The notes below the pieces were generated by a model. The model was not told where the DNA came from. It worked only from the letters and a program-made list of their open reading frames with translations, and did no database searches. From Richelia sp. SL_2_1 (GTDB taxonomy: Bacteria; Cyanobacteriota; Cyanobacteriia; Cyanobacteriales; Nostocaceae), in assembly GCA_012033205.1 (NCBI GenBank), contig JAAUSO010000019.1:1-61615 (forward strand): DNA of 61,615 bases, in the 5' to 3' direction. How positions within the stretch are numbered: the stretch's first letter is position 1; each line of letters starts with the position of its first letter. The translations under genes and the position numbers were made by a program. Below, piece by piece: positions 55,912 through 61,497 of this stretch.

Positions 55912-57585
55912 ATGAATTTAATTTGGCTTTTATTAAAGGCTTCTTGGTTACAAGTTGCGATCGCGATTTTGACGGGTTTGATCAGTGGTGGAACTACAGC
56001 AAGGTTGATTGCGTTGATCAATAAAGCGATTAGCGAAGGCTTTCAATCCTCCGACAGCTTGAGTAACCTAGGGTGGCAGTTTCCGATTTTGGCATTAATA
56101 GTAGTTGTCAACAGCATTATCTCGCAAGTTTTACTGATAAATCTTTCTCAAGAAGCCGTATATCAGTTACGGTTGCGGTTGAGTCGAGGAATTTTAGCTG
56201 CTCAATTACAACATTTAGAAAAATTAGGTATACCACGTCTGTTAGCAACCCTCACAGAGGATGTCGCAACCCTAACAGCGACAGTCTATGCAATTCCTTT
56301 TATCTGTGTTGATATCGCAATTATTACTGGATGTTTGCTTTATTTGTCTTCCCTATCTGGTAACGTGTTTGCTTTTACCGTGGGGTTTGTGATGATAGCT
56401 GTCGGTAGTATTCAACTACTGATTAACAGAGCGCAAGGTTTTCTGATTTCAGCACGAGAAGAACAAGACCGTTTATTTAAACATTTTCGCGCCATTACCG
56501 AAGGGATAAAAGAGCTTAAACTACATAGCGCCCGTCGTCAAGAGTTTTTTGAACAAGAATTACAGCAGAGTGCAGCGATATCTCGCGATCAAAATTCAGC
56601 AGCATTATTAACATTTTCTGTTTCCACAGGATGGGGAAATCTCTTATTTTTCATCCTTGTTGGTTCCCTACTATTTGTATTACCGCAAATAGCGACAGTC
56701 CCCCCCGCAACATTATCAGCTTATATCCTGACAGTTACTTATTTAATGCTGCCTATGCAGAGCATATTAGATAAATTACAGGCTTTATCTAAAGCTAGTG
56801 TAGCCTTACAAAAAATCGAAAGAATGGGTTTAGTATTAGCTGGGAACAAAGAAAATTATATCGAAGAAAACAAACAAGATATCAAAACATTTTTCACATT
56901 AGAGTTAAAACAAGTAGTTCATGCATATCCGGGAGAAGATAAAGAAAGTCGCTTTAATTTAGGTCCCATTGATTTAACATTTAAACCTGGAGAAATTGTC
57001 TTTATAGTTGGTGGTAACGGTAGCGGAAAATCAACTTTAGCAAAATTAATTACAGGATTATATATTCCCGAAGCTGGAGAAATTATTTTAGATGGGAAAA
57101 CAATTACCGATGAGAATCGTGAGTGGTATCGTCAACATTTTTCAGTAATTTTCTCCGATTTTTACTTATTTGAAAAACTTTTAGGAATTGGTAAACCTAG
57201 TTTAGACGAACAAGCACAGGAATATTTACGACAATTGAAATTAAATCATAAAGTAACCATAGAAAATGGGAAATTATCAACCACTGAACTTTCTCAAGGA
57301 CAGCGTAAAAGGTTAGCATTATTAACAGCTTATTTAGAAAATCGTCCAATTTACTTATTTGATGAATGGGCTTCTGATCAAGACCCAATATTTAGAAATA
57401 TTTATTACAAAGAGATATTAACTAATTTGAAAAAACGTCATAAAACAGTATTAGTTATCAGTCACGACGACCATTATTTTCACCTTGCAGATAGGATAAT
57501 AAAATTAGATTACGGCAAAGTCGAATATGATAAAGTTAATTCTAAATTAGCAGTAGAAAATGGCGTAATTCGACATAGTTCATAG
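55912..57585 (+). CDS. Cyclic-peptide-type ABC exporter (SyrD/PvdE-like)
   Basis: A 557-residue fused ABC transporter with six helices first (LLLKASWLQVAIAILTGLISGG; FPILALIVVVNSIISQVLL; FAFTVGFVMIAVGSIQLL; NLLFFILVGSLLFVLP) and then the ATPase: Walker A VGGNGSGKST, signature LSQGQRKRLALL and Walker B RPIYLFDEWASDQDP. The WASDQDP variant is typical of SyrD/PvdE-type exporters of siderophore precursors and cyclic peptides. The methyltransferase is the only adjacent partner. No NRPS is in the window. A perfect hairpin terminator follows. Confidence 0.93.
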   Translation: MNLIWLLLKASWLQVAIAILTGLISGGTTARLIALINKAISEGFQSSDSLSNLGWQFPILALIVVVNSIISQVLLINLSQEAVYQLRLRLSRGILAAQLQHLEKLGIPRLLATLTEDVATLTATVYAIPFICVDIAIITGCLLYLSSLSGNVFAFTVGFVMIAVGSIQLLINRAQGFLISAREEQDRLFKHFRAITEGIKELKLHSARRQEFFEQELQQSAAISRDQNSAALLTFSVSTGWGNLLFFILVGSLLFVLPQIATVPPATLSAYILTVTYLMLPMQSILDKLQALSKASVALQKIERMGLVLAGNKENYIEENKQDIKTFFTLELKQVVHAYPGEDKESRFNLGPIDLTFKPGEIVFIVGGNGSGKSTLAKLITGLYIPEAGEIILDGKTITDENREWYRQHFSVIFSDFYLFEKLLGIGKPSLDEQAQEYLRQLKLNHKVTIENGKLSTTELSQGQRKRLALLTAYLENRPIYLFDEWASDQDPIFRNIYYKEILTNLKKRHKTVLVISHDDHYFHLADRIIKLDYGKVEYDKVNSKLAVENGVIRHSS

Positions 57586-58167: not shown

Positions 58168-59505
58168 TTAGACAAAAAAGCGAATTAATAGATAACCTGT
58201 AGCCGCAACTAGCTGTAATAGTGTTACCGGAATACTGTATTTAAGAAAACCCTTAAATGTAATTCGTCTTCCATACTGTTGAGCAATTCCTGCGGCTACA
58301 ATATTAGAAGATGCTCCCACCAAAGTACCATTTCCTCCTAAACTTGCACCGAACAACATCGCATAAAATAAAGGTAATACCGATGGTGGTAATTGCCCGC
58401 TGAAATCTGGTGTTAATACTTCTGCTCCCACTAATCCAACATTAATTAAATACTGTTTTAATAGCGGAATCATTGCTACCACCAAAGGAATATTAGGAAC
58501 TATACTTGAGAGGATTCCAGTCACAAAAACCAATACTATGGAACCAAAAATCATATTTGTACCGATAGATGTTGCTAATATACCTGCAAAACTTTCAATT
58601 ACCCCTGTTTTTTCCAATCCTCCGATTAACACAAAAGTACTCATAAAAAATATTAAAGTACTCCAATCCACATCCCGTAAAATATTTTCTACTGTATCAA
58701 CTTTAGTTTGATGAGATACAAGCATTGATAAACCAGCACCCGATAAAGCAACCGCAGCCGGTGAAATTTTCACTGGTAAAGTATCGCCAATTACAAAAAA
58801 GAGTATTACCAAAGCAAATATCAACCCCCCCATTGTTAAAGCTTCTGGATGTTTAATTTGCGGATGCGGGATGTGTTCTAAATCATCCAACTTTGTCAGC
58901 CAAGTTTTGCGGAAAAGTATGGGTAATGTCACCGCAACCACAGCAATTGCTATTACTCCCCCCAAACTTAAACGTAATAAATAATCTCCAAAGCTTAAAT
59001 TAATTGCATCACCAACTAAAAATGTTACCGGGTCACCAACTAAAGTTAATAATCCTGCGGCGTTAGCAACAAATACCATTAAAATTAATAACGGTACAAA
59101 ATTAACACTTAATTCTTTCGCTATGGGAGGAATTAAAGGTGCTAATAACATTACTGTTGTCGCATTAGGTAAAAATGCACAAATAGGAATAGTTATCGCA
59201 ATGATTCCTAGTAATAAACGTTTACCTTCTCCTTTGACTAATAATAGTATTCGTGCAGCTAAATAATCAAAAACTTTCGTGGGTTGAAATGCTCTGACTA
59301 ATACCATTACACCGAAAAATAATGATATTGTTCCATGACTTTTCGCTATATAACCAATTGCTTCTTCTAAAGTCATGATATTAGTAAAAACTAATAACAA
59401 TGCCCCTAAAAAAGCTGCTACAGTCAAATTTATCCACTCTGTCATAATTAAACTAATGACAGCAATAAAGATGGCACCGCTCAACATTGCTTGCCAATTC
59501 CCCAT
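58168..59505 (-). CDS. ArsB/NhaD/SLC13-type ion permease
   Basis: A 445-residue membrane protein with about 11-12 helices. The ArsB/NhaD (ion transporter) superfamily pattern is visible: TVAAFLGALLLVFTNIMTLEEAIGYI, then GIIAITIPICAFLPNATTVMLL, FVANAAGLLTLVGDPVTFLVG (the GDP motif shared by ArsB and NhaD) and GASLGGNGTLVGASSNIVAAG. It may export arsenite or exchange Na+ and H+, or carry a dicarboxylate; these cannot be told apart here. A good AGAGGAG ribosome-binding site precedes the start. A probable c-di-AMP riboswitch lies about 320 bases upstream on the same strand. Confidence 0.9.
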   Translation of the reverse strand: MGNWQAMLSGAIFIAVISLIMTEWINLTVAAFLGALLLVFTNIMTLEEAIGYIAKSHGTISLFFGVMVLVRAFQPTKVFDYLAARILLLVKGEGKRLLLGIIAITIPICAFLPNATTVMLLAPLIPPIAKELSVNFVPLLILMVFVANAAGLLTLVGDPVTFLVGDAINLSFGDYLLRLSLGGVIAIAVVAVTLPILFRKTWLTKLDDLEHIPHPQIKHPEALTMGGLIFALVILFFVIGDTLPVKISPAAVALSGAGLSMLVSHQTKVDTVENILRDVDWSTLIFFMSTFVLIGGLEKTGVIESFAGILATSIGTNMIFGSIVLVFVTGILSSIVPNIPLVVAMIPLLKQYLINVGLVGAEVLTPDFSGQLPPSVLPLFYAMLFGASLGGNGTLVGASSNIVAAGIAQQYGRRITFKGFLKYSIPVTLLQLVAATGYLLIRFFV

Positions 59506-59824
59506 AACAAGCTCCTCTAAATTTAATAGTATTAATTAGGAATTACTAGCCTCTAAACTAGTTATTAACTAGCAAAATTCATTTGCTAATCAGATTTAGC
59601 CACGGATAATTAATTGTATTCGTTTAAATGCTATTACTGCCATCAAAAACCCCTAAGCAGTACATCACGAATACTTAAAGCTTAAAAATTTTATTTTATT
59701 CAATCAAAAAAATCATGCATCATGTTTTACCAGGTAATAATTAAGTACACAACTAAGTACACAACTGAAACGAATAATATTAGCCTGGGATAATAATGAA
59801 AACAAAACATCATTAAAATGCTGT
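59506..59824. other. Leader between riboswitch and permease
   Basis: 319 bases without a supported gene. On the minus strand an expression platform could be here. I see no strong terminator stem, so translational or long-range control is possible. AGAGGAG precedes the permease start. Confidence 0.45.
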
Positions 59825-59990
59825 TTATCATCAATCCCCTCGATGCCTACGAAGTTAGCTGACGGGCTAGGATTGAGAGGTATCCTTCTTACTAAGAAGT
59901 TATTGATACTTCTAAGTAAAATACGCCCCGTAATAGTGGTTCCTCCGTTCCAACTTGAAAAAGATAAGCAGGATTAGGCTGATTTTTTGT
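59825..59990 (-). promoter_or_regulatory. Probable c-di-AMP riboswitch (ydaO/yuaA family)
   Basis: On the minus strand the conserved blocks of the ydaO aptamer appear in order: CCTAATCCTGCTTAT, GGAACGGAGGAACCA, TTACGGGGCG, GGATACCTCTCAATCC and CCCGTCAGCTAACTTCGTAG, then GGCATCGAGGGG. The last blocks are the most diagnostic. The riboswitch binds cyclic di-AMP and usually turns genes off. Here it faces the permease gene at 59505. The family call is from memory of the consensus and should be tested. Confidence 0.8.
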
Positions 59991-60190
59991 TGATAATTAT
60001 TGTATCATAATCTGCTTTTTTTGTAATCAAATCTACCTAAAGGGAGTTTTATTTTTAATTTTTTTTGAAAATTGAAATTTATAATACAATATTTAGCCTA
60101 CTTTGTTAAATAGATGTATTGCTTTCAATATACTTTTATAAACTTGAGGGAGCGGGAAAGAAGCAATAATATAAGAAAAATTGGAATAAG
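59991..60190. other. Spacer, nothing recognised
   Basis: 200 AT-rich bases between the riboswitch and the deoxyribosyltransferase-like gene. No supported feature. Confidence 0.4.
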
Positions 60191-60628
60191 TTATTTGAAA
60201 ATTTGGTTGGCTAATTCTTCTAAAGAATAAACAATATTAATTTCAGGACGTACTAAAGCAGTTTGAATTTCTACGTCCTGTCTTCTCGGATAATTGGGAT
60301 GAACTCCGATAAACAAAGGTTTATCCGTCATTGAGAAAGCACCGAGTTCGTAAAGGGTTATTGGACAAATTGTTTCTTGGGGAAACCAGAAAAGAATCGA
60401 TGAAGCAAGTCGCAAATGTCTGTGTTCCCATGCAATCTGCTGTTTAGAAGCATCGGGATTATCAATCGGGAAATTAGCACGACGGGGATTTAAAATAATC
60501 CAAGGTGAAGGTTTCAAAAATTCCACCATTTGCGATTGCCAATCTGGACAGTTGGAAATTCCACCAGCTAAAAATATTGCATCTCCTTGACCATCAAACT
60601 CTTCTAACGCTTCAATATATATACTCAT
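60191..60628 (-). CDS. Nucleoside 2-deoxyribosyltransferase-like protein
   Basis: A 145-residue protein with the Rossmann-like NDT fold: DAIFLAGGISNCPDWQSQM, WIILNPRRANF, then WEHRHLRLASSILFWFPQE and the catalytic-type motif TLYELGAFS, whose Glu matches the nucleophile of the family, ending INIVYSLEEL. Such proteins move deoxyribose between bases or cleave nucleotides. The same fold is used by TIR-like effectors in phage defence. The ATG at 60628 lies one base past the stop of the preceding gene, so they are co-translated. The role is open. Confidence 0.85.
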   Translation of the reverse strand: MSIYIEALEEFDGQGDAIFLAGGISNCPDWQSQMVEFLKPSPWIILNPRRANFPIDNPDASKQQIAWEHRHLRLASSILFWFPQETICPITLYELGAFSMTDKPLFIGVHPNYPRRQDVEIQTALVRPEINIVYSLEELANQIFK

Positions 60629-60629
60629 G

Positions 60630-61139
60630 TTAAAAGCAATAATCTACACCAGCAATTACTGCTAAAGCTATAGCATATTCTTCTAAATCGCGCCTGAGTA
60701 TTTCTAATTCGCTTCTTAATTTTGCTTGGTGCTTCCAGTTTTTTTCGTGTTCAAAAGGACTAATATCGAGAGGACGTTGTGCTTCCCAGGTTTGTAATAA
60801 AGGATGCCACTTTGCGAGAAAAGGACGTAAACCGCGATTGAGTACGGTAATCGCAATTCCTCCAACTGATCGATGAGAAGCACCGATATCGGGACCTGCT
60901 TGTTTGAGAATTTCCCGTGTAGTTGCAAATAAGCTGTGCAAAGATACAAGAGCTTCCCGCAATAATCCGTGGTCTGTTCCTGCTTCTAAAGGTTGGATGG
61001 TAACACGAGTAACGAGTTCTACAAATAATGACCAAGCAGCCTTTCTTTCGGTATCATCGGGTTCCCATTCCGTTCCACCAATTCCAAAAGGGAGATTTAC
61101 AGATACTTTTGTTAATTTTGTAGAGTCTTGTTTGGGCAT
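60630..61139 (-). CDS. Hypothetical helical protein, partner of the NDT-like gene
   Basis: A 169-residue soluble protein, mostly helical. RKAAWSLFVELVTRVTIQPL, REALVSLHSLFATTREILKQ and QAKLRSELEILRRDLEEYAIAL are the helices. Between them is an Asp/Gly/Ser/His-rich part (GPDIGASHRSVGGIAITVLNRGLRP). I know no domain name for it. It is tightly linked to the NDT-like gene (one base apart) and 61 bases behind the HigA gene, so the three probably form one operon. Confidence 0.75.
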   Translation of the reverse strand: MPKQDSTKLTKVSVNLPFGIGGTEWEPDDTERKAAWSLFVELVTRVTIQPLEAGTDHGLLREALVSLHSLFATTREILKQAGPDIGASHRSVGGIAITVLNRGLRPFLAKWHPLLQTWEAQRPLDISPFEHEKNWKHQAKLRSELEILRRDLEEYAIALAVIAGVDYCF

Positions 61140-61200: not shown

Positions 61201-61497
61201 TCAGCCTATAGCTTTAAATTGCGAAATATTTTTTAGCTCTTCCTCTTCTTCTTTGAGAACGTAGTAAAGCTCCCAATTTTGTTGAAGATTTAACCAAAAA
61301 TTGGAGCTATTTCCAAAGAATTTTGATAATCGTATTGCTGTACTAGGTGTAATTCCTCGCTTTTGATTTACAAGCTCATTTATTCGCTGATAGGGTACGT
61401 GAAGTGCATCTGATAGTTGTCGTTGGGTTATTCCCATTGGTTCGAGAAAATCTTTGAGTAATATTTCACCGGGATGTATTGGAGGTCCATATAGCAA
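61201..61497 (-). CDS. higA: HigA-family antitoxin
   Basis: A 98-residue helix-turn-helix protein of the HigA/VapI family. PIHPGEILLKDFLEPMGITQRQLSDALHVP is the typical start, then YQRINELVNQKRGITPSTAIRLSKFFGNSSNFWLNLQ, ending in an acidic patch. It would bind its operon promoter. HigB usually lies just upstream of higA on the same strand. Here the upstream sequence (61498-61615) is a dispersed palindrome, so HigB is absent or outside the window. It may instead regulate the two genes behind it. Confidence 0.9.
   Translation of the reverse strand: MLYGPPIHPGEILLKDFLEPMGITQRQLSDALHVPYQRINELVNQKRGITPSTAIRLSKFFGNSSNFWLNLQQNWELYYVLKEEEEELKNISQFKAIG

Follow-up and report, generated by a model that had tools for sequence, protein, structure and literature searches.

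A c-di-AMP riboswitch predicted in the leader of a CitMHS-family permease gene in the cyanobacterium Richelia sp. SL_2_1

Described c-di-AMP riboswitches and the aptamer of the window

According to passages of a review (PMC10117731), verified c-di-AMP riboswitches exist in cyanobacteria (citing Mantovani et al. 2022), and the one in Synechocystis regulates slr0753, which encodes a putative chloride efflux transporter (citing Kobayashi et al. 2006). The same gene was the site of three independent suppressors that relieved a chloride requirement, as stated in a passage of PMC9896922, and the RNA Ncr1680 is tabulated together with slr0753 in an excerpt of PMC5386190; we infer that Ncr1680 holds the riboswitch. 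Slr0753 is named among candidate chloride exporters that were undetected in proteome data in the relevant passage of PMC8670252. The pairing of a c-di-AMP riboswitch with an ion transporter in a cyanobacterium, proposed for the DNA analyzed here in an earlier annotation (the first-pass annotation), is therefore already in print (PMC10117731). The locus presented below is a further example of a pairing described in a model cyanobacterium, and its type of system is known. Another described system is the tandem Na+/c-di-AMP riboswitch of Dehalobacter. Passages of PMC9337991 mention the pseudoknot of c-di-AMP riboswitches, describe potential base pairing between the left shoulder of a terminator and nucleotides from the aptamer and pseudoknot, and give the effect of c-di-AMP in vitro as OFF.

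The window analyzed here is a stretch of 61,615 nt from Richelia sp. SL_2_1 (contig JAAUSO010000019.1), and the positions of its features are collected in Table 1. Blocks of the ydaO type had been noted in order on the minus strand in the first-pass annotation, with an Infernal search proposed as a check. When the window was scanned with cmscan, the RF00379 model matched with 76.7 bits (gathering cut-off, 38; E = 4.6e-16), and the alignment spans model positions 1 to 134 of 134, with no truncation and with all blocks in order, which bears out the earlier reading. The aptamer is without notable difference from RF00379 riboswitches. It is the sole RF00379 match in the 7.55-Mb genome (98.3% complete), and cmscan found no other Rfam riboswitch in the window. 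In an alignment of five genomes of the genus, the core blocks of the aptamer are nearly invariant and the flanks divergent. The sequence comparisons confirm the aptamer as a genuine c-di-AMP riboswitch, the predicted sensor of this locus. The host is predicted to be able to make the ligand, with one diadenylate cyclase domain (DAC, PF02457; 3.0e-37) and one homolog of the 7TMR-HDED phosphodiesterase (PF07697; 7.9e-45) in the genome.

RF00379 was surveyed in an even draw of 292 genomes over the cyanobacterial phylum, of which 75 carried it (111 matches, 109 over the cut-off), and in 388 genomes of the order, of which 258 did so (257 over the cut-off); both surveys used stricter filters, by which weak matches are lost. 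The pseudoknot, which joins a hairpin loop to the 3′ tail, lies outside the nested Rfam score and so provides independent support for the aptamer. The window strands CCUCUC and GAGGGG can form 6 bp, one of them G-U. A loop/tail helix of 5 bp or more is possible in 109/109 cyanobacterial RF00379 matches over the cut-off. Counted as distinct loop/tail pairs, 78/78 reach this length, whereas 200 letter shuffles of the tails gave 47.3 on average and 57 at most. Relatives form the helix with other letters, including CUCUC/GAGAG, CUUCC/GGAAG, ACUGAA/UUCAGU, and AUCCCA/UGGGAU. When a subset of 38 leaders was aligned, the pseudoknot cells were paired in 96.1% versus 34 to 81% when slid, and 2/6 pairs change on both sides.

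Several other candidates in this region were set aside or downgraded. The letters CGUAU after GGGG, considered as an unusual feature of the window aptamer, occur more often than any other form in the 109 matches (29 by the main pattern, with 4/109 fitting no pattern) and were rejected as such. Four weak Rfam matches within 59000-60700, all under their cut-offs and bearing eukaryotic family names, were also rejected. A promoter-like site adjoins the aptamer just upstream and is weak because six sites of that quality occur in the region versus 3.1 (SD, 2.1) in shuffles.

Table 1. Positions of the features of the window (numbered from its first letter)
Feature	Positions	Strand	Basis
Cyclic peptide export ABC transporter gene	55912-57585	+	TIGR01194, 498 bits
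Permease gene, 445 aa, CitMHS (PF03600)	58168..59505	-	ORF and profile matches
Permease ribosome-binding site AGAGGAG	59512..59518	-	Read from the sequence
Leader, 323 nt, aptamer to permease	59506..59828	-	Five-genome alignment within the genus
Possible second stem	59730..59788	-	Arms kept in the 5-genome alignment (by eye)
Possible hairpin A	59787..59838	-	Minimum-energy fold; homologous helix in selected relatives
Pseudoknot tail strand GAGGGG	59836..59841	-	Pairs with loop
Pseudoknot loop strand CCUCUC	59875..59880	-	Pairs with tail
c-di-AMP (ydaO/yuaA) riboswitch aptamer	59829..59990	-	RF00379, 76.7 bits, full length
Promoter-like site ATTACA-17-TACAAT	59999..60027	-	Consensus scan 9/12, TG before second hexamer
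HigA-type antitoxin gene	61201-61497	-	TIGR02607, 104 bits

Family and putative substrate of the permease

The next gene on the same strand encodes the permease, and its ORF starts 323 nt past the aptamer. The interval 59505..59990 delimited in the first-pass annotation corresponds to the aptamer plus the leader, with the permease start codon beginning at 59505. This arrangement, together with a permease homolog downstream of 36/109 RF00379 matches (window included), upholds the claim that the riboswitch is aimed at the permease, and comparison of the sequences makes it very probable that the permease gene is under c-di-AMP control. Elsewhere in the window, we observed genes for a cyclic peptide export ABC transporter and, near the contig end, a HigA-type antitoxin.

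The permease had been described as ArsB/NhaD-like. Its principal Pfam match is to CitMHS (215.2 bits versus a gathering cut-off of 31.9), with lesser matches to ArsB (PF02040; 47.3 bits) and Na_sulph_symp (30.6 bits). Every one of the six NCBIfam families listed for the permease is under its curated cut-off. The score for NhaD is 51.9 bits versus an equivalog cut-off of 577.1 (TIGR00775), and the scores for ArsB are 89.3 versus 457 bits (NF011980) and 82.4 versus 415 bits (TIGR00935); the Na+-coupled DASS transporter family gives 87.9 versus a cut-off of 198.6 bits. An arsenical pump membrane protein of solved structure (3e-20) and VcINDY (2.5e-12) are matched by a profile built from 24 such permeases. 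The ArsB, NhaD, and DASS transporters thus show remote profile similarity to the permease over much of its length, whereas the window permease falls under the curated cut-off of each family. By sequence, the permease belongs to the CitMHS family and its likeness to ArsB and DASS is remote; the ArsB/NhaD likeness noted earlier stands in this remote sense only. The genome contains no close paralog, the second match being 24% identical over query positions 7-198 (E = 1.2e-6). Among the best 80 of 387 permease relatives in named genomes, the nearest are those of Rivularia sp. T60_A2020_040 (98%) and Calothrix parasitica NIES-267 (85%), and none is a Synechocystis record.

Like the proposed arrangement in the window, slr0753 of Synechocystis sp. 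PCC 6803 (“P protein”) is described as a riboswitch-controlled cyanobacterial transporter, and, likened by description, the window permease is most likely of the same type. Chloride or another anion is its putative substrate, an assignment that we rate as evenly poised, and its putative role is most likely anion (chloride) export tuned to the ionic or osmotic state. The first-pass annotation had raised Na+ control by c-di-AMP, under which the permease would be a Na+/H+ antiporter or a Na+-coupled transporter. The remote matches to NhaD, DASS, and VcINDY are in keeping with such a transporter, but the NhaD and DASS scores are far under their cut-offs, and slr0753 is called a putative chloride efflux transporter in passages of PMC10117731 and PMC9896922. 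Because of that description, anion export is a better fit than Na+ exchange; the sodium proposal is disfavored, and we regard it as unlikely.

Leader structures and the proposed switch

Among the five aligned genomes of the genus, the leader is kept well past the aptamer, to about position 59710, and is divergent thereafter. The first-pass annotation had called for the expression platform to be found; this search yielded two candidate stems, but a simple scan detected 0 terminator-like sites in the leader, and the fold of the window leader has a z score of -1.0 (34/200 shuffles as good). Hairpin A is present in this minimum-energy fold, even though the z score is only of that size. Its 5′ arm, GGGAU-UGAUGA (59838-59828), overlaps the pseudoknot tail in the window, and its 3′ arm is UCAUUA-UU-AUCCC (59799-59787). 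The possible second stem would pair CCAGGCUAAU (59788-59779) with AUUACCUGG (59738-59730), and two of its bases are common to hairpin A.

Similar helices were sought in relatives, in many of which the tail past the pseudoknot, GGAGACUGA, pairs with a downstream UCAGUGUCC. For the hairpin A-type helix, 96.7% of cells are paired versus 31 to 46% when slid (37 selected leaders plus the window), a result favored by the selection, since the 37 leaders were chosen by the downstream motif. The covariation score of the helix is 0.151 versus 0.029 to 0.086 when slid and was reached by 7/500 shuffles. Pairs changing on both sides number 3/8, versus up to 6 in slid versions, and the number of pair types was reached by 88/500 shuffles. 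Without selection, the tail/downstream helix exceeds the 95% point of shuffles in 26/108 distinct leaders; under a scheme that allows one mismatch but not bulges, the best such helix in the window, at 13.0, falls short of the average for shuffles (15.4). At the place matching the second stem, a GGUAC/GUACC stem in relatives has 78.4% of cells paired versus 25 to 58% when slid; that percentage was reached by 51/500 shuffles, and the stem is weakly supported. RNAalifold, applied to the same alignment of relatives' leaders, predicted neither of the two stems. The overlap of hairpin A with the pseudoknot is limited to two columns in most relatives, and formation of one therefore need not exclude the other. 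Judged by sequence alone, the leader past the aptamer is similar to a structured element that many relatives carry. We noticed no earlier description of this element in the literature searched, although it may still be known. The stems offer a model of the expression platform that is specific enough to be tested.

The direction of control can be approached through relatives in which a start codon lies close to the aptamer. In four leaders (L060, L083, L117, and L135), an ATG is located 20 nt after the tail start, and the purine-rich pseudoknot tail is the would-be ribosome-binding site; the four come from two genomes of one genus and were drawn from 10 leaders with a possible start near the tail. 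If the ligand stabilizes the pseudoknot, these leaders would be OFF switches. By analogy, the riboswitch of the window is somewhat more probably an OFF switch than not. From the aptamer, pseudoknot, gene order, and recurrence observed in the sequences, we infer a mechanism with the following steps. At high c-di-AMP, the ligand would bind and clamp the tail GAGGGG in the pseudoknot, and the clamped tail would be unavailable to the downstream leader for pairing into hairpin A. The alternative stem would then form in the leader, and permease expression would drop. At low c-di-AMP, the tail would pair downstream and the permease would be made. Control in the window would be exerted by early transcription termination or RNA processing more likely than by hiding the permease ribosome-binding site, because the permease start is 323 nt away. 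The Dehalobacter riboswitch, as described in passages of PMC9337991, is comparable in that the 3′ side of its aptamer and the pseudoknot can pair with a downstream expression platform. It differs in possessing intrinsic terminators and an upstream Na+ aptamer, whereas neither a terminator-like site nor another Rfam riboswitch was found in the window. Passages of PMC5986932 report that c-di-AMP levels under salt and sorbitol vary between species; under salt, two unicellular strains showed no change, whereas the level fell in F. diplosiphon and rose in Anabaena. Given such species-dependent levels, physiology leaves the direction of the switch unfixed.

The leader also bears on three other explanations. 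The aptamer could act on translation or mRNA stability, with the leader stems gating ribosome access or exposing the leader to RNases. The lack of terminator-like sites in the leader is consistent with this route, as are the four relatives whose pseudoknot tail would be the ribosome-binding site and one leader (L042, genome G170) in which, by eye, the tail-pairing segment can also pair with the ribosome-binding site. In the window, however, the permease ribosome-binding site (AGAGGAG in 3/5 aligned genomes, window included, and AAAGGAA in the other two) is separated from the tail by about 320 nt. When the leader was scanned for pairing, no convincing partner emerged for this site, the helices being 6 to 9 bp and A-U or G-U rich only, and the 12 best include neither hairpin A nor the second stem. 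We thus consider action on translation or stability a real but lesser possibility. A small protein of 34 codons (59831..59727, minus strand), with its ribosome-binding site in the pseudoknot tail, might alternatively be the true target. Its frame is open in 5/5 aligned genomes at 30 to 34 codons, with length differences in multiples of three, yet third-position changes are not in excess (for example, 4, 7, 7; window versus genome G450), 4/5 genomes have a second open frame as well, and by eye no such ATG occurs there among the other relatives' leaders listed. Because the substitutions show no codon-position bias, the small ORF is probably not coding and was rejected, and its being the target is very unlikely. 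Finally, the aptamer could be a decayed relic without function, as might be suggested by the leader fold, which is not significantly stable, and by the genus, in which the leader was matched by DNA in 5/8 genomes and had no match in 3/8. The full-length RF00379 match, the contrast between nearly invariant core blocks and divergent flanks, and the kept pseudoknot all argue against decay, which we judge to be extremely improbable. The best explanation, in which we have good confidence, is a standard c-di-AMP riboswitch in the permease leader, with OFF-type control as the likelier direction and anion export as the putative role.

Recurrence of the riboswitch-permease pairing in cyanobacteria

The first genes downstream of the 109 matches were classified by BLAST clustering, with a few contigs ending early, and each class was named from the Pfam match of an individual member (BPD_transp_1, NMT1_2, Usp, and ExoD). 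Where a permease homolog is present (36 matches), it follows the riboswitch directly in 27 cases, behind a universal stress protein gene in 8, and behind an ExoD-like gene in 1. An ABC transporter permease comes first downstream in 37/109 matches (plus 3 uncertain), a universal stress protein without the permease in 25/109, and other genes in 8/109. Viewed from the permease, the aptamer core motif is present upstream at 40/80 loci (within up to 1.8 kb of upstream DNA per locus) and downstream of the gene at 12/80, these being the best 80 of 387 in named genomes. One genome, G687, carries the riboswitch with a permease 65.6% identical to that of the window. By these sequence surveys, the riboswitch-permease pairing is an ordinary, recurring arrangement in cyanobacteria. 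The pairing is shown to recur across the phylum, and the window adds a Rivularia/Calothrix-type cyanobacterium and no new class.

A wider interpretation, which we advance as tentative and rather doubtful, is that of a platform shared by many cyanobacterial c-di-AMP riboswitches, in which the pseudoknot tail would pass to a hairpin downstream in the absence of ligand. Such a platform would govern a phylum-wide ion/osmotic regulon made up of the anion permease, a nitrate/bicarbonate-type ABC transporter, and the universal stress protein, and in the Rivularia-like host considered here it would govern chloride export.

Multiple riboswitches per genome were also observed. In 11/30 matched genomes of the window's family, two c-di-AMP riboswitches on the same strand are spaced by 1.9 to 4.1 kb, with ABC transporter genes behind the first and a universal stress protein gene behind the second (for example, L062/L100, L058/L087, and L093/L109, and eight more). 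Behind the second riboswitch of these 11 pairs, the universal stress protein gene stands alone in 7 and has the permease next in 4. At L256 and L257, in two genomes (G538 and G525), a pair of c-di-AMP aptamers on one strand, spaced by about 540 nt, is possibly tandem. Single riboswitch matches precede genes for P-type cation ATPase-like (L049), cation/proton antiporter-like (L057), and glycosyltransferase (L052) proteins, the first two being named by eye from their sequences.
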